A stretch of 64,000 bases of DNA from Paraglaciecola hydrolytica (GTDB lineage: Bacteria > Pseudomonadota > Gammaproteobacteria > Enterobacterales > Alteromonadaceae). This document shows positions 19,428 through 25,808 of this stretch, piece by piece (positions within the stretch are counted from its first letter, which is position 1; every line of letters starts with the position of its first letter). The stretch covers positions 62,001 through 126,000 of the forward strand of contig NZ_LSNE01000007.1 in NCBI RefSeq assembly GCF_001565895.1. Reading direction: 5' to 3'. Both the position numbers and the translations under genes were made by a program. The notes under the pieces were generated by a model, which did not search any database, was not told the origin of the DNA, and saw only the letters and a list, made by a program, of their open reading frames with translations.

Positions 19428-20015
19428 CTAACAATGCATATAGGTTTGGCTCTGATTAATACCCAGAATAATGCCGTTTTTATCAAACAATAGTTCAACA
19501 CTGTCTCCATTTTTTAGATTACCGTCAATTTGATGTAAATTGCGCAGGGCAGTAATCAGTTCTTGCGATACCTGCACTATCTGTTGATCACAAGTTTGAA
19601 TTTGCCAATCACCTTCTGTTTGACGTAACACAGCTTGTTTGGTGTGGTGTAAAGCTAAGACTTGTTGTTGGGATAAATAGTCTTGGTAGTGTTTGGCATA
19701 ACGTTCGGTGATTGCCGTAGATTGTTGCTCGGCAGCCAATGAATGTAATTCGACAGTGGTATATTGTGTGGCGCTGAGCTGTGGCTCATCTGTTTGCCAT
19801 AGCTTGTAATGCCAAAATACCAAGGTGCACAGTAATAGAGTACTTGCAGCTACTGCTACGTGGCCAATGCGTTGCCAGATTTGTCGATGGTTGAACATGG
19901 ATTGGTGCGCAGCGAGTACCGCTCGTTTAATACTGGCTGGTGCGCTGTGCTGGTTTTTACGTTGACGATATAAGTCTAGTAGGGCGTCGTCATTGGGTTT
20001 ATTGGGCTTAGACAT
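19428..20015 (-). CDS. Anti-sigma factor (single-pass membrane protein)
   Basis: 195 residues from the ATG at 20015, which overlaps the end of the ECF sigma gene by 8 bases; this fixes the start. The cytoplasmic N-terminus (about 50 residues, Lys/Arg-rich) is followed by one membrane helix (VAVAASTLLLCTLVFW) and a periplasmic domain of about 120 residues. No zinc-finger HxxxCxxC motif is seen. Position, overlap and topology point to an anti-sigma factor for the upstream sigma gene; the sequence itself is not a recognised family. Confidence 0.65.
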   Translation of the reverse strand: MSKPNKPNDDALLDLYRQRKNQHSAPASIKRAVLAAHQSMFNHRQIWQRIGHVAVAASTLLLCTLVFWHYKLWQTDEPQLSATQYTTVELHSLAAEQQSTAITERYAKHYQDYLSQQQVLALHHTKQAVLRQTEGDWQIQTCDQQIVQVSQELITALRNLHQIDGNLKNGDSVELLFDKNGIILGINQSQTYMHC

Positions 20016-20595
20016 CTTGTTCCTCGGCGAGGCCTTGTAATTGTGCACGTAAGTGCTCTTTTGCATAACGTAGGCGACTTTTGATCGTTTCAATATTGTT
20101 ATGAGTAATCGTTGCGATATCTTCCAGACTAAACATTTCCTGCTGCAGACAAAATGCCTCTCGTTGCACAAAAGGCAAGTTGTCCAGTGCCTGATTAAAA
20201 CATTGCAAGTGGTCTTGGCTCTTGTTTAGCAAAGGCTCAGGGGCGACAAAAGTATCAAAATCTACCTCTTCAACTAATCTTTGATTGCGCCGGTATTCAT
20301 CGATCAACAGGTTGCGGGCTAAGGTAAATAACCAGGCTTTAAACAAACCTGAGTCACGATAGAGATGTTTTTTTTCGATGACCTTAAGCCAAGTGAGTTG
20401 ACTGATATCTTTAGCCAATGTGGCGTCAGACAAGGTTAATAAAAAGTGATAGAGGTCATTGCCACAAGCGTCATATAGTTTACTCAGTAACACCTGCTCA
20501 CCTGTCTTGGCGTAGCTCAGCATTAATGCTTCGTTACTCCAACCGGTAGAGCTGTGTCTAAATATCCACGTTTTTAATGACAAGCTAATACTCAC
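20008..20595 (-). CDS. ECF-type RNA polymerase sigma factor
   Basis: 195 residues. The start is GTG, supported by AAGGAG five bases upstream. Region 2 is seen in DISQLTWLKVIEKKHLY and FKAWLFTLARNLLIDEYRR. Region 4 is ALDNLPFVQREAFCLQ followed by FSLEDIATITHNNIETIKSRLRYA, the -35-binding helix-turn-helix. It overlaps its probable anti-sigma gene and lies 52 bases after tonB on the same strand. Target genes are not evident in the window. Confidence 0.88.
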   Translation of the reverse strand: MSISLSLKTWIFRHSSTGWSNEALMLSYAKTGEQVLLSKLYDACGNDLYHFLLTLSDATLAKDISQLTWLKVIEKKHLYRDSGLFKAWLFTLARNLLIDEYRRNQRLVEEVDFDTFVAPEPLLNKSQDHLQCFNQALDNLPFVQREAFCLQQEMFSLEDIATITHNNIETIKSRLRYAKEHLRAQLQGLAEEQDV

Positions 20596-20647
20596 TGCAA
20601 CTCCTTAACATGATTATTCTGCCTGTAATTGTAAGATTAACAACAGC

Positions 20648-21289
20648 TTATTGATCCAGTTTAAAATCCAGTTGCACCATTAGTCCTTGCTGAGCTTGTG
20701 GCACTCCCGCAACAACCTGAGGTTTATATTTCCACTTGGCTAAAGCTCTTTTAGCTTCGCGATCAAATATGCGAGCAGGTTGAGCTTCAATTACTTGGAT
20801 ATCCTGCACCTGCCCTAAAATATCAATGGAAAACAGCAGTTTAACCCAACCTTCTATACCAGCCCGCGCTGCATCGATAGGGTACTTAGGCTCCATGCGT
20901 ACTACCGGTATGGCTTGACTGTCATCTAATGCCAACAGGGTATTGTTGGGCAGGCCTGGGTCTTGAATTTTGAGGTCGGGTGTATAGTTCACAAAAAGGG
21001 TTTTGTCGTCGGGTGTTTGCTCAATAATCCTGAGGGTTTTTTCAGGATGAGGTAAAGGTTCTGGCATAGGTTTAGGACGTGGTCTTTCGATTAATGGATT
21101 TTCTTTAAAATCGGAAGTCAGTTCAATAATGGGTGACAGGCGTGGCTGGGTCAGATCTTCGCCATCAAATGCGATGAGCTTTTGCATCATCACAAACAAG
21201 GCAAAAGTGATGGCGCTGGCCATTACTATCGCAGCAGTTAACTTAAATAAAGAAGGTTTAGGGTAGTGCAGTTCTAGTGTTGCATTCAT
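20648..21289 (-). CDS. TonB-family energy transducer
   Basis: 213 residues: an N-terminal membrane anchor (about 16-36), a Pro-rich periplasmic linker (RPRPKPMPEPLPHPEK) and a C-terminal TonB domain with YPIDAARAGIEGWV and the KWKYKP end segment. It transmits the proton gradient from ExbB/ExbD to outer-membrane receptors. No exbB/exbD lies here. It is upstream of the sigma/anti-sigma pair on the same strand, possibly in one unit. Confidence 0.85.
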   Translation of the reverse strand: MNATLELHYPKPSLFKLTAAIVMASAITFALFVMMQKLIAFDGEDLTQPRLSPIIELTSDFKENPLIERPRPKPMPEPLPHPEKTLRIIEQTPDDKTLFVNYTPDLKIQDPGLPNNTLLALDDSQAIPVVRMEPKYPIDAARAGIEGWVKLLFSIDILGQVQDIQVIEAQPARIFDREAKRALAKWKYKPQVVAGVPQAQQGLMVQLDFKLDQ

Positions 21290-21351
21290 GGTATTTCTCC
21301 GGTGGTTTACAGGAGTAACGGACCAAAAATGAAAAAGGGGTTAAAAAATAA

Positions 21352-21474
21352 AAACAGTGACTAGAAGCTAGTAAATAGATTCTAGTAACCGCAGAGGCTA
21401 GTAAATAGCGGCTAGATACTAGAAAAAACTTTGGCTTTTAACTAGTCACTAGTTTCTAGCGGCTAGCCACTGCT
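21352..21474. repeat. CTAG-rich inverted element, copy B
   Basis: Has the left arm GACTAGAAGCTAGTAAATAG, a second GGCTAGTAAATAG block and an inverted right arm (TTTGGCTTTTAACTAG, then CACTAGTTTCTAG and GCCACTGCTCT). It lies directly 3' of the globin gene and 5' of tonB. It shares arms with the elements at 31554 and 52140. Confidence 0.65.
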
Positions 21475-21891
21475 CTACAAATAAATGATTTCTTTGCGGG
21501 TGGGGACCATTTTCGCCAGCAGTTTGTTTTGCACGGTATGAGGCACATTGGCCTTGGTCATGGCGGCGATAAACAAATCGACGCCAAGGTTAAAGTCACT
21601 TTCGCTGATATTCATGCCTGCATGCACTTGCTCCATGGTATCGCCAGTATAGGTGCAGGGGCCATTAGCTAACAAACACAGGTGTTCATTGAGTTTTTCA
21701 CGGAAACGTTCGATGTCTGATTCGGCAAAATAAGTAAACATGGTTTTGTTGTATTCAATTTCATGAATAAAATTATCAACTATCTGTGCGACAGTGTCTT
21801 TGCCACCCAGTTCGTCATATAAACTCATTTGAGTGCTGGCACAGCCAGTCAGTAGGCTGAAGATGAAACATAAGGTAGCGAATTTTTTCAT
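21475..21891 (-). CDS. Group 1 truncated haemoglobin carried on a lipoprotein signal
   Basis: 138 residues. A lipoprotein signal (lipobox LTGC near residue 17) precedes a globin of about 115 residues: SLYDELGGKDTVAQIVDNF, FREKLNEHLC and QVHAGMNISESDF, whose His is the expected proximal haem ligand. Truncated globins bind oxygen or nitric oxide. An exported, membrane-anchored form is uncommon. It is the last of four genes whose order is cupredoxin, GGDEF/EAL, DUF3034, globin, with only 4 bases separating it from DUF3034. A haem-based redox or gas role in the periplasm is inferred. Confidence 0.85.
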   Translation of the reverse strand: MKKFATLCFIFSLLTGCASTQMSLYDELGGKDTVAQIVDNFIHEIEYNKTMFTYFAESDIERFREKLNEHLCLLANGPCTYTGDTMEQVHAGMNISESDFNLGVDLFIAAMTKANVPHTVQNKLLAKMVPTRKEIIYL

Positions 21892-21895
21892 AGTC

Positions 21896-22759
21896 TTACC
21901 ACAATTGTCCGTTTAATGAGAGATACAAACCTGATTGCCCTGCGGCGCCCGCGATAGTGCCAAGCTCTGCCCACGCGAGAGTCAGGTTAAAGTCTTTACT
22001 GGGAATATAAGAGATAAAATAATCGGTCCAGTTATCTTCACCTAAACCTAAATTATCCGGTTTTTGGCGATATTCGATGCCCACCGCAATATTGCGTGAA
22101 AACAGTATGCCGGCCGAGGCTTCAAACATGATTTCGTAGTCGTCATTTTTTATCCCACCGAAACCTAATATACCCATTTCATTGGCTTTGGTGGCTCGTG
22201 CTGTCAGGTTCCAAACGGCGTTGTAACCAGCAATCGCGCCTAAATGTACTTTGGTAGCGGCCAGATAAAAATCGGTGCCGCTGCTGTTGTTGTCTGCCCC
22301 CACTGCGGCGGCAATATCGCCATCTTCCAAGTGTTTGTACTGCATGCCGACACTGAGTTGGGGCCAGTCTGAATACACCACGTCGCCATAGAGTCGGTAT
22401 TTTAAACCCACAATATTTTGTTTGATGTCGATACCCGCGCCTTTTATTTCAAAACGTTGTTGGGCCACGCTAACTTCCAGACTGTCATAAAAGGATAAGC
22501 TGGCACCTAACATAGTCAGGCGATAATCATCGACATCAACTTGAGTGACCACAGCACCTGCGGATATCTGATCGCGACTGTCGTAACCCGATATGGTAGC
22601 CCAAGGAACTATGCCACCGCCGCCACTACCTTCAATTTGACTTAGACCTGCGGTCGCTATCAATTTGCCGTCTGCGGCCAGTGCCACTGGAGTATGCAAA
22701 GTAACTATAGTCAGGCCAGCTTGTAATAATGCTAGTGCCGGATACTTTGGTATTTTCAT
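21896..22759 (-). CDS. DUF3034 family outer-membrane protein
   Basis: 287 residues from ATG 22759. This ATG overlaps the stop of the GGDEF/EAL gene (ATGA), so the longer upstream frame is rejected. A signal peptide ends near ALA. The mature part is beta-rich with GSGGGGIVPWATISGY near its start, typical of DUF3034, and ends in an aromatic-type terminus (GQLW). It is probably a barrel in the outer membrane. Function is unknown; it is co-transcribed with a cupredoxin, a c-di-GMP enzyme and an exported globin. Confidence 0.8.
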   Translation of the reverse strand: MKIPKYPALALLQAGLTIVTLHTPVALAADGKLIATAGLSQIEGSGGGGIVPWATISGYDSRDQISAGAVVTQVDVDDYRLTMLGASLSFYDSLEVSVAQQRFEIKGAGIDIKQNIVGLKYRLYGDVVYSDWPQLSVGMQYKHLEDGDIAAAVGADNNSSGTDFYLAATKVHLGAIAGYNAVWNLTARATKANEMGILGFGGIKNDDYEIMFEASAGILFSRNIAVGIEYRQKPDNLGLGEDNWTDYFISYIPSKDFNLTLAWAELGTIAGAAGQSGLYLSLNGQLW

Positions 22760-25092
22760 GTATTCTCCAACCAGTTTTGATTTATATGGCTTCGATACCA
22801 CTCTATAAGCGCAGCAACTGGGATGGGTTTGCAGATGTGATAACCTTGCGCGTATTCGCAATCCCAGCGCTGTAACATCGCCAGTGTTTCTTGGTTCTCG
22901 ACACCTTCTGCTACTACATCCATGCCAAAGCTTTTGGCTAACTTTAATACGGTTTGCACGATATTTTGATCACCCACTTGGGTATTTAATTTGAGTACAA
23001 AACTTTTATCGACCTTTAAGGTGTCTACGGGCAGATTTTTTAAGTAGGCCATCGACGAATAACCCGTGCCAAAATCATCAATTGCTAGGGTAAAACCATA
23101 ATCTTTAAAGGCGGTGAGATGTTTGATGGCTTTATCTGGATCTTTTACTACGTCGCTTTCAGTGATCTCAAAAGATAAGAGACTGCGTGGTAAATTACGC
23201 TCTGCAAGCTGGCTGACCACCATGGGCAACAGTTCGGGATTCATTACATCATGGGCGGATAAATTAATCGCTATGCATACATCTATACCAGCATCGAGCA
23301 ATAGCTGGCCGTCGTCCATGGCGCGGTTAATCACCCAGTTGGTGACATTCTCGATAAAACCGGCCTGTTCAGCAATGCGAATAAAATCTTCTGGTGATAC
23401 AAACCCCAGTTTTACGCTATTCCAGCGAATGAGGGCTTCAACACTCATTATTTTATTGGCACTAATGTTGAGCTTGGGTTGATAGGCTAGGCTTAGTTCT
23501 TGTTGATTACCGGCTAAGGCTTGTTTTAGCTCAATAATAATCGACAATCTGCGCAGATAACGTTGTTCAATTTCAGGATCAAAACTCAAGAGTAGTTGGC
23601 GGGTAATTTGCGCTTCGTCTAAAACGATATTCATACGTTTAAACAAAATTTGCGCCGTTTGCGCATCGGCCGGGCAATCAATTATGCCAATAGCCACTTT
23701 TAAGTTAATGATAACGCCGGTTTCTTCTATGGGGTGTTCTAATGCGAGTTTTAACTTGAGTAGTTGCTCATTACTTTGCACTACATCTGGGATCCACAGT
23801 AACTCTCCACCGGTTAAACGGGCGGCCAAGCCACCTAACGCCGAGACTCTTGACGCTAATACTTTCAAACAGATATCGCCGCTATGATAACCAAAGATGT
23901 CATTAATGCCGCGAAAACCAAAAATATTGATACCAATGGCCTGGAACGATTCTCCTAGCTGTAACTTATCATCAATGACTTTTTCGATGTGGTAGCGGTT
24001 ATTGATGCGTGTCAGTAAATCATGATTGGCTTGGAAAATGATTTTAGACTCACGGGCGCGGATGTTGTCTTGCATCAGTGAAAAGGCGCTGGAGAGATCC
24101 TGTACTTCGCTTAAATCTTCGCTATTGGTGTGTAAGGTTTGTTGGTAATTCCCATGGGAAATACGATGCGCTACCTCGGCCAGTTTTTTGAGCGGAGTAG
24201 CCAAGTTACGGGCAAACATGGCACCAAATAGCAGAGTTATCAGGATGGATAACAAAGCAACCAAGGTAATGGTGATTTGCAGTTGGTTAAATTCTGAAAA
24301 AATATGCTCGGCATTTTCCGACAGTACAACCCAAACACTTTGATCTTGTAATTCAGCTAACTGGAACTGTTTAGAGATATAAGCATGTTTTTTTAATATG
24401 GCCGTATCCCACCAGCTAAAGGAGCGTTTTTCATCCTCGATAACATTAAGTTGAGTGCCTAGTGCTAAGGTACTGGCAGAAAAAATCAGGCTATCGTTGT
24501 GTCTGACCTGCAACGATAAATCTAACTGAGTGATATTTTTAAGCTGAGTCAGTAGCTCTTTTTCTAGCTCAAAACCCACTAAGGTCAGTGCGATGGGGCG
24601 TGGCGCATCCACAGTGAGCATAATGACTTGATAGAGTTTGTCATCAAATAACATCAGTGTGGTACTGCCGCCTTCGTTGATGGTCTCTTGGACAAAGTCA
24701 GCATAAGGAAAAGGGCTGCCAATTGGCAACGCTGCAGAGGTACTAGAGGTAAGCAGGCCATCAAGGGATATCAGCGCCATTAAGTCGGCATTAATGCGAT
24801 TGCCATGGTTGAGCAATACACTGCGAATAGTGCCTTCGTCTTGGGTGGCAACTGCCTGTTTAAAACCAAAATCTGAGGTCAGTACATCGGCACTGTTATA
24901 GAGCTGTTGCTCGCGGCTGGCGAGTACTTGCTGTAACACGCCTTGGGCAATGGTGAGGTTACGATTTAATTGTTTTTGCGCGTGGCCGGAAGTGGTGACC
25001 CACATGCTGATGAGTACACCGACTGTGGTAAACAGTACCGTGCCTACAACTAGCCTAAAAATGCTTTTATTAAGTGAGGTCGCTGCCATCAA
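22756..25092 (-). CDS. Membrane sensor with HAMP, degenerate GGDEF and EAL domains
   Basis: 778 residues: N-terminal membrane helix (10-32), a periplasmic sensor of about 240 residues, a second helix (near 275-295), HAMP, GGDEF-like and EAL domains. The signature of the cyclase site reads TGGEL instead of GGDEF, so synthesis of c-di-GMP is unlikely. The EAL domain keeps EALIRW, the DDFGTGYSS loop and VDKSFV, consistent with phosphodiesterase activity. It overlaps its neighbours by 4 bases on each side (upstream cupredoxin, downstream DUF3034). The periplasmic sensor may read the redox or copper state set by these partners; that is inference. Confidence 0.88.
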   Translation of the reverse strand: MMAATSLNKSIFRLVVGTVLFTTVGVLISMWVTTSGHAQKQLNRNLTIAQGVLQQVLASREQQLYNSADVLTSDFGFKQAVATQDEGTIRSVLLNHGNRINADLMALISLDGLLTSSTSAALPIGSPFPYADFVQETINEGGSTTLMLFDDKLYQVIMLTVDAPRPIALTLVGFELEKELLTQLKNITQLDLSLQVRHNDSLIFSASTLALGTQLNVIEDEKRSFSWWDTAILKKHAYISKQFQLAELQDQSVWVVLSENAEHIFSEFNQLQITITLVALLSILITLLFGAMFARNLATPLKKLAEVAHRISHGNYQQTLHTNSEDLSEVQDLSSAFSLMQDNIRARESKIIFQANHDLLTRINNRYHIEKVIDDKLQLGESFQAIGINIFGFRGINDIFGYHSGDICLKVLASRVSALGGLAARLTGGELLWIPDVVQSNEQLLKLKLALEHPIEETGVIINLKVAIGIIDCPADAQTAQILFKRMNIVLDEAQITRQLLLSFDPEIEQRYLRRLSIIIELKQALAGNQQELSLAYQPKLNISANKIMSVEALIRWNSVKLGFVSPEDFIRIAEQAGFIENVTNWVINRAMDDGQLLLDAGIDVCIAINLSAHDVMNPELLPMVVSQLAERNLPRSLLSFEITESDVVKDPDKAIKHLTAFKDYGFTLAIDDFGTGYSSMAYLKNLPVDTLKVDKSFVLKLNTQVGDQNIVQTVLKLAKSFGMDVVAEGVENQETLAMLQRWDCEYAQGYHICKPIPVAALIEWYRSHINQNWLENT

Positions 25093-25808
25093 TTAAACTT
25101 AGATTTGAATTTAGAGGTGGTTTTGGGGGCTTCGTCAGTCACTGCTGTTTGCCCCACTAAGTTTAAATTCAACTGGATAAATCCACCCTCGGCAGAGGCT
25201 GGCAATGAGCTTATATCAACACTTTCACGTTTGGTATTTTGCGTGGATAAATTAGCATGCCAAACATTTACTAGGCTGGCTGAGTCGGGTAGTTGCACCT
25301 CACCCTGGGCGTCAGAAATAAAGGTTTTTTCGTCTTGGGCAACATATATATAACCCACCATCTGATCGTGAATATTACAACCTAAGACCACTATGCCCGG
25401 TTTATCGAACATCAGCGGTGCGTTAACGACACCTTTGAACAATTTAATTTCAAAGGGTTTGGTGGCTGAAAAACTGTAAACATGATGACGAATATCATCA
25501 CTATTAGGAAACGCAACTAACTGCCCTGCAGTGATGGTGAGTACACGCGGTAAAAACTGTTTGTTGATCTGATCCATTACCGCAATTTCTTTGTTAGCCT
25601 TATCTGCTGAGGCTATTTGTGGAATAGCGATAACGGCATCCATTATGGGTTGGTTATTTTGATCAATCAGTTTGAGGGTTTTAGCCTGGAGTGGATAACC
25701 AAGGGTTAATAATAAACCGCAAAAAAGTAATTTTTTAGCAGTGCTAAAGAGCTTGTTGCTTAAGACGTTTTGCCATGCTGCTAATAAAACTGTGTTATCT
25801 AAATTCAA
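25089..25808 (-). CDS. Methylamine-utilisation-type cupredoxin-like periplasmic protein
   Basis: 239 residues from a TTG start with an AAGG about 10 bases upstream; no ATG is available before the signal peptide. The signal peptide ends near LQA. The cupredoxin-like fold shows FPNSDDIRHHVYSFS and GCNIHDQMVGY, with His, Cys, His and Met in the order of a type 1 copper site. Similar proteins are annotated as methylamine-utilisation proteins although no methylamine genes are here. First gene of the four-gene operon ending in the globin. Copper binding is predicted from residues only. Confidence 0.75.
   Translation of the reverse strand: MNLDNTVLLAAWQNVLSNKLFSTAKKLLFCGLLLTLGYPLQAKTLKLIDQNNQPIMDAVIAIPQIASADKANKEIAVMDQINKQFLPRVLTITAGQLVAFPNSDDIRHHVYSFSATKPFEIKLFKGVVNAPLMFDKPGIVVLGCNIHDQMVGYIYVAQDEKTFISDAQGEVQLPDSASLVNVWHANLSTQNTKRESVDISSLPASAEGGFIQLNLNLVGQTAVTDEAPKTTSKFKSKFN

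Follow-up and report, generated by a model that had tools for sequence, protein, structure and literature searches.

The window analysed here is a whole stretch of 64,000 nucleotides of the Paraglaciecola hydrolytica genome (contig NZ_LSNE01000007.1, positions 62,001 to 126,000), and the system in question is an operon of four minus-strand genes at 21475-25808. These encode a cupredoxin-like secreted protein (hereafter CUP), a membrane sensor-phosphodiesterase (the EAL protein), a DUF3034 protein and a truncated globin (Table 1). The original prediction had described four genes that overlap or nearly touch, and this is what the junctions show: CUP and the EAL gene meet at TGATG, where the start codon of the latter (ATG, at 25089) shares one base with the CUP stop, the EAL and DUF3034 genes overlap by the four bases ATGA (22756-22759), and DUF3034 and the globin are spaced by four bases. 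The identities proposed earlier for the cupredoxin-like protein, the DUF3034 protein and the lipoprotein globin are likewise borne out by Pfam, profile, fold and conservation evidence. The first in-frame start codon of CUP is a TTG, no ATG being found ahead of the mature region, and the residue numbers of the EAL protein follow an open reading frame (ORF) start one codon before its ATG (TTG 25092). Loci and genomes other than the window are cited below by our own numbers (L and G).

Table 1. Features of the four-gene operon, its downstream flank and the second operon of the same genome.
Feature	Position	Strand	Basis or remark
CUP, cupredoxin-like secreted protein, 239 amino acids	25089..25808	-	Invariant alignment columns, AF2 model, Foldseek, profile search
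Membrane sensor-phosphodiesterase, 777 amino acids from ATG 25089	22756..25089	-	Pfam, conserved EAL residues
DUF3034 predicted outer-membrane beta-barrel, 287 amino acids	21896..22759	-	PF11231 (E 4.7e-105), AF2 model, fold matches, conservation
Lipoprotein group 1 truncated globin, 138 amino acids	21475..21891	-	PF01152, PDB profile matches, 70-sequence conservation
CTAG-rich intergenic repeat	21330-21480		Between operon and TonB gene
TonB-like gene, then overlapping extracytoplasmic function (ECF) sigma factor and probable anti-sigma gene	19428-21289		Downstream of operon
Second operon: CUP, dCache-GGDEF-EAL protein, outer-membrane-like protein of 405 amino acids	L003:5109-9317 (G000:C5, ~893-897 kb)		Own genome

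The gene order goes beyond chance and is a real, widely conserved unit, extending far beyond close relatives; the refuting condition attached to the original prediction, an order confined to close relatives, is not borne out. In the relatives search, DUF3034 was present in 26 of 60 genomes, P. hydrolytica included, and the order CUP-EAL-DUF3034-globin was found at 21 of the 25 DUF3034 loci of the other genomes, one of these (L031) having its EAL gene split over two frames. The four exceptions are L050, which has no EAL gene, L052, where DUF3034 is divergent and no globin was seen, and L053 and L054, which carry DUF3034 and globin only. Among the 80 best named CUP relatives the four genes are strictly consecutive on one strand in 64, a share that is biased upwards, since at least 591 matches were confirmed and these 80 are the closest among them; a looser order rule also gives 64, the two sets differing by L058, in which a short ORF lies between the four genes, and L130. 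The genera represented include Alteromonas, Pseudoalteromonas, Colwellia, Thalassotalea, Pseudomonas, Methylophaga, Hahella, Cellvibrio and Nitrosomonas. Gaps of at most 20 bp were found at the three junctions in 62, 61 and 64 of the 64 loci, respectively, counts that are minima, the gaps having been taken from the start codon furthest upstream. The flanks vary, with 63 upstream neighbours falling into 36 families and 62 downstream neighbours into 48 (blastp single linkage), and in six loci (L221, L248, L249, L251, L252, L254) the globin and DUF3034 genes are inverted yet still adjoin CUP-EAL.

CUP has no Pfam family match, its match to pseudoazurin being weak and far under the cut-off. Its AF2 model (pLDDT 89.4) shows a cupredoxin fold and matches solved type-1 copper proteins across ~95-110 residues, the Foldseek matches in PDB being the cupredoxin domain of NirK (E 2.2e-6), amicyanin (3.4e-6), plastocyanin and pseudoazurin (4.2e-5, root-mean-square deviation (rmsd) 2.8, target TM 0.55). 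In the profile comparison, nitrite reductase (NirK) and amicyanin align with the ligand region of CUP, and the His-Cys-His-Met set of a type-1 copper site (H108, C144, H147, M150) is invariant in alignments A1 and A6. Each of 38 rows, chosen for diversity and including CUPs that adjoin cyclases and kinases, retains all four ligands (37 distinct loci, L100 and L168 being the same one), and the rows in A5 and A6 have 19-48% identity to the window CUP. These results argue for a plausible copper site, which would be loaded with copper. Conservation reaches beyond the ligands to FPNSD..RHHVYSFS and GCNIHD.M, and such a stretch around the copper site would fit a docking face. The label 'methylamine utilization protein', given by NCBI to nine of 13 plasmid relatives of CUP, is not supported in the two plasmid contexts examined (L296, L297). 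MauG-like genes turned up close to CUP in only a few loci, in an analysis that included no search with a mau profile.

The EAL protein comprises, according to Pfam, a dCache_3 domain (residues 39-213, E 9.6e-9), HAMP (293-346, 1.2e-6), GGDEF (2.5e-12) and EAL (522-756, 7.1e-66). A degenerate GGDEF beside an intact EAL had been read from the window alone, and both parts hold. The motif is TGGEL, which rules out a diguanylate cyclase, and the 11 metal- and substrate-binding residues of EAL, among them those that we take to be catalytic, occur in all 70 readable rows; a 71st row, L109, whose gene is split, is gapped at these positions. Since the EAL residues are complete throughout and a canonical GGDEF occurs in only seven of the 70 readable rows, the proteins of the four-gene branch look like dedicated phosphodiesterases. 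In three otherwise normal operons (L109, L031, L172) the EAL gene is broken over at least two frames, by sequencing error or decay.

The AF2 model of DUF3034 (pLDDT 80.4) is an antiparallel transmembrane barrel with 12 long strands, for which an outer-membrane location is predicted. Its closest folds are FapF (Z 18.8, rmsd 2.9 over 211 residues), KdgM (Z 18.5, rmsd 2.1 over 171), NanC and VhGalP. Behind the signal peptide lies a conserved Gly-rich segment (27-60), which is modelled with low confidence. Another outer-membrane-like family, of ~400-450 amino acids, occurs in 17 other CUP loci, including the second copy in the same genome (L003), and accompanies EAL, histidine-kinase (L170) and cyclase (L180) sensors. 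Its members begin with a signal-like sequence and in most of them an aromatic residue is the C-terminal one or close to it, features which suggest that they are barrels too; no Pfam match was obtained for the three members tested. Shared ancestry of the 17-member family with DUF3034 (alignment A7) is unsupported (hhalign probability 2.8%).

The globin belongs to the group 1 truncated haemoglobins by its profile and its proximal His. It matches Bac_globin (PF01152, E 1.3e-15) and, in PDB, HbN (E 6.8e-25 for a mutant entry and 5.4e-24 for 1idr) together with other group 1 truncated globins. In 70 aligned globins the proximal His90 and an extra Cys pair (C72/C79) are invariant, the lipobox Cys17 is aligned in 69 and the lipobox pattern is found in 66. 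The distal positions, assigned from a gap-free alignment with the HbN profile, are apolar in the window globin (I42, F63, L67); over the 70 sequences B10 (position 42) is always I, L or V, E7 is mostly F or L, and E11 (position 67) is always L, F, M, V or I, mostly L or F. The residue pattern of an HbN-type nitric oxide (NO) dioxygenase is thereby excluded, TyrB10 and GlnE11 being absent in 70 of 70. A pocket of this apolar kind would be better adapted to the sensing of NO or CO, or to electron transfer, than to the stable binding of O2. Another kind of haem gene, MauG-like and di-haem, was seen in L259 (2721-7329), between CUP and a PAS-rich hybrid histidine kinase, as a fragment in L260 (6263-10175), a CUP-hybrid kinase locus, and in L197 (5556-7446), where it directly adjoins a weak, sensor-less CUP; further tblastn matches fall in L204, L262, L182, L127, L054 and L079. 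From these genes in L259, L260 and L197, the haem partner may recur in another form, or MauG-like genes may merely be frequent near cupredoxins.

CUP and its sensor together form the nucleus of a larger class, in which both the output and the outer-membrane protein can be exchanged; the version with the globin is a single branch of this class. In a class sample of 369 genomes, CUP-profile matches, a count that includes short cupredoxins of other kinds, were obtained in 78 genomes and DUF3034 in 18, P. hydrolytica being among both. CUP adjoins DUF3034 in 11 of these 18; among the other seven loci, L206 has a globin and L205 and L211 lie at or near contig ends. The loci compared for their outputs came from two samples, both limited to CUPs of at least 95 bits. 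In the phylum sample, 70 matches gave 52 new loci (10 were already in our set, seven short cupredoxins were excluded and two matches fell in one locus), then 50 after the loss of L239 to an overlap rule and of one locus below 95 bits; L239 is itself an additional CUP-EAL pair. In the class sample, 40 hand-picked loci, the strongest and then some longer frames, were reduced to 32 (L204 has no CUP ORF and seven loci were below 95 bits). A sensor lies at most three genes away from CUP in 39 of the 50 loci of the phylum sample, with 36 EAL proteins, one cyclase and two hybrid histidine kinases as outputs, and in 25 of the 32 loci of the class sample, with 13 EAL proteins, six Ser/Thr kinases, four cyclases, one histidine kinase and one frame-broken EAL. 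The part shared across outputs is the dCache-like periplasmic domain with HAMP. The class III cyclases were recognised by Pfam in L179 and L180 and by a custom profile only in L169, L181 and L226, the Ser/Thr kinases by Pfam in L185, L187 and L188 and by a custom profile only in L189, L191 and L192, and the histidine kinase of L170 and the hybrid kinases of L259 and L260 all by Pfam. The CUP-sensor pair is common without DUF3034 or globin, for example in the second operon of P. hydrolytica (L003), which has neither alongside. The larger class and this globin-free second copy go beyond the original prediction. Class members are also found on large plasmids of Caballeronia (L296) and Comamonas (L297); the order in L296 is DUF3034, globin, CUP and a short cache protein, the annotated gene after CUP being this short protein only.

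Seen from the sensor side, 39 full-length matches were obtained in the class sample (E <=1.1e-19, starting by model position 144), and 36 remained once G104, G205 and G244 were left out. CUP lies at most three genes away for 30 of these 36; for the other six, L190 has a CUP 2 kb away and five have no CUP nearby. Because the profile derives from sensors linked to CUP, five of which recur among the 36, it leans towards the linked subfamily. A sensor search was also made in 12 genomes with unlinked CUP loci (G176, G275, G373, G094, G619 and G647 being outside it). A full-length sensor was found elsewhere in six genomes with unlinked CUP (G013, G405, G773, G533, G549, G564): in G533, a separate sensor-DUF3034-globin set (L295) is the complement of its solitary CUP (L222), and G013 has two sensors, one of which (L289) is accompanied by its own CUP. 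In G746 and G739 a complete operon is present a second time (L240, L238), the sensor of G681 is cut by a contig end and G291 has sensors elsewhere. The Marinomonas loci L064, L073, L093 and L095 consist of CUP-DUF3034-globin or of CUP alone. G549 and G564, whose EAL sensor is located elsewhere, look Marinomonas-like from their neighbours.

Downstream of the operon, the TonB, sigma factor and anti-sigma genes (19428-21289) look like a separate unit, set apart from the operon by a 185-bp gap carrying a repeat. The probable anti-sigma gene has no Pfam match, and the same set also adjoins the operon in L044. The CTAG-rich repeat has 15 more partial matches, some overlapping, in the same genome.

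We propose that the operon belongs, as one branch among others, to a widespread class of signalling modules of the envelope. In these, the periplasmic type-1 copper protein CUP would be the subunit that provides the input to a transmembrane receptor whose periplasmic domain is dCache-like. The copper occupancy or redox state of CUP would alter its contact with this domain, HAMP would relay the change to the cytoplasmic output, and in P. hydrolytica this output would be the hydrolysis of cyclic di-GMP (c-di-GMP) by the EAL domain, so that cells receiving the signal would tend towards motility rather than biofilm. The DUF3034 barrel and the haem globin lipoprotein, as the outer half of the module, would supply or gate whatever it is that CUP signals, be it electrons, a small gas or a metal. 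We give slightly better than even chances to this proposal, a copper- or redox-dependent CUP as input subunit of a trans-envelope receptor whose EAL output would lower c-di-GMP. It is favoured by the 30 of 36 sensors with a CUP at most three genes away and by the six genomes in which an unlinked CUP has a sensor elsewhere. It is based on the observed tight gene order, its conservation, the ligand and catalytic residues, the predicted folds and the swapping of outputs, and from these we infer copper loading, the signal, the contact of CUP with the sensor, the direction of the response and the roles of the barrel and the globin. The earlier interpretation, a periplasmic redox or gas signal that lowers c-di-GMP, is supported in part, by a conserved unit, an EAL-only architecture and a plausible copper site, while the signal itself and the fall in c-di-GMP keep their conditional status.

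Several observations weigh against this proposal. No sensor is linked to CUP in 11 of the 50 loci of the phylum sample and seven of the 32 of the class sample, which include L220 (sensor cut by a contig end) and L190 (sensor 2 kb away), and five of the 36 sensors (L284-L288) have no CUP nearby. G166 has CUP, DUF3034 and globin and no sensor match at E 1e-12, and G635 (73% complete) has only a HAMP-level sensor match. The CUP score gives no clean border: weak CUPs of 24-72 bits adjoin sensors in L276-L283 (24 and 43 bits in L282 and L283), and a sensor stands beside none of the eight CUP-like loci below 95 bits that were found from the CUP side. The structure predictions are of single chains only, the contact between CUP and the sensor being surmised. 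Scanning the regions upstream of 80 CUP genes with 11 consensus patterns (FNR/ANR, CueR, Fur, NsrR, ArcA, CopR, NorR, FleQ, sigma-54, CRP, RpoE) yielded no regulator motif clearly above four single-base shuffles; the counts were 18 against 9-15 for FNR-like, 12 against 5-11 for CopR-like and 61 against 44-58 for NorR-like motifs. Finally, partial sets exist: CUP-DUF3034-globin without an EAL gene in Marinomonas (L064, L073), G549 (L237) and G013 (L050), DUF3034-globin without CUP in L053, L054 and L206, and DUF3034 without CUP or globin in L207-L210. Such sets indicate that the outer half can act independently of the sensor.

These partial sets bear on a first alternative, in which CUP, the barrel and the globin form an electron-transfer or detoxification set, for example for the removal of NO or O2 in the envelope, where CUP would carry the electrons. 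The EAL protein would then only report on this set or be expressed along with it. The CUP-DUF3034-globin sets without EAL gene and the existence of DUF3034-globin alone are in agreement with it, as are the profile match of the globin to group 1 truncated globins including HbN, the MauG-like genes in L259, L260 (fragment) and L197 and the tblastn matches in L204 and L262. However, CUP is paired with an EAL sensor and has no globin or DUF3034 within three genes in 11 of 50 loci of the phylum sample and six of 32 of the class sample, neither partner lies within three genes at five of five cyclase, five of six Ser/Thr-kinase and three of three histidine-kinase loci, and none of the 70 globins has either the TyrB10 or the GlnE11 of an HbN-type NO dioxygenase. 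We regard this alternative as rather unlikely. Marginally less probable is a trans-envelope redox wire, in which the outer-membrane globin and the barrel would pass electrons or a gas-dependent redox state to CUP as the plug-in input for one receptor family, with outputs spanning c-di-GMP, cyclic nucleotides, and histidine and Ser/Thr phosphorylation.

Copper homeostasis, in which the barrel would import or sense copper, CUP would store or chaperone it and the sensor would read copper-loaded CUP so that the cells leave or form a biofilm under copper stress, seems more doubtful. The ligand set of CUP is complete and the copper transporter PcoB is among the fold matches of the barrel, but it comes low down (rank 29, Z 12.9) and is a generic match. 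A CueR-like site (<=2 mismatches) was found in none of the 80 regions upstream of CUP genes, and no copper-resistance gene was recognised in the neighbourhoods, where no systematic search for them was made. Common expression by operon inheritance, with no shared mechanism, is very improbable: the partial sets L050, L053, L054, L064 and L206 would fit it, but the association outlasts low identity (19-48% for CUP), re-orientation, output swapping and changed flanks.

The input-subunit proposal is of a known kind, a periplasmic partner that controls a membrane signalling enzyme, and would be categorically new only if the redox wire were shown. In NspS-MbaA of Vibrio cholerae and in the YfiR-YfiN(TpbB) system of Pseudomonas, a soluble periplasmic protein controls the membrane GGDEF/EAL or GGDEF enzyme of the adjacent gene, as proposed here; their partner is a solute-binding or YfiR-type protein and they are not known to include a haem lipoprotein, whereas the present operon has a predicted type-1 copper protein and a predicted haem lipoprotein. 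A comparable control of the sensor by CUP is suggested here by gene linkage alone, and we know of no case in which an NspS- or YfiR-type partner also serves cyclases and kinases. CUP has in common with amicyanin, pseudoazurin and plastocyanin the fold over ~95-110 residues and the H-C-H-M ligand order, but is longer, with extra N- and C-terminal strands, conservation beyond the ligands and linkage to sensors. The globin shares the group 1 profile and proximal His with HbN and differs by being a lipoprotein, by its extra invariant Cys pair and by apolar B10/E7/E11 residues instead of Tyr/Leu/Gln. The layout of the EAL protein, for which there is a weak NCBIfam match, resembles the periplasmic domain-HAMP-GGDEF-EAL arrangement of LapD-type c-di-GMP receptors. 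The EAL of LapD is inactive, whereas the EAL residues of the window protein are complete. In the open-access papers searched, outside which most subscription papers lie, no study of the operon or of CUP-sensor pairs was found, and two papers among them that mention DUF3034 concern other subjects; the conserved unit is apparently unstudied, and the earlier remark that no characterised system has this design agrees with this search.

Blue copper proteins are textbook electron carriers, and here a whole family of them is linked, across Proteobacteria, with receptors of four output types. If the proposal is true, DUF3034, a conserved lipoprotein globin, the outer-membrane family of ~400-450 amino acids and the proteins labelled 'methylamine utilization protein' would gain a role, and the hypothesis is directly testable in cultivable marine bacteria. 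Should CUP be the sensing element, the pair would represent a general bacterial way to read the extracytoplasmic copper or redox state, setting biofilm formation and motility.

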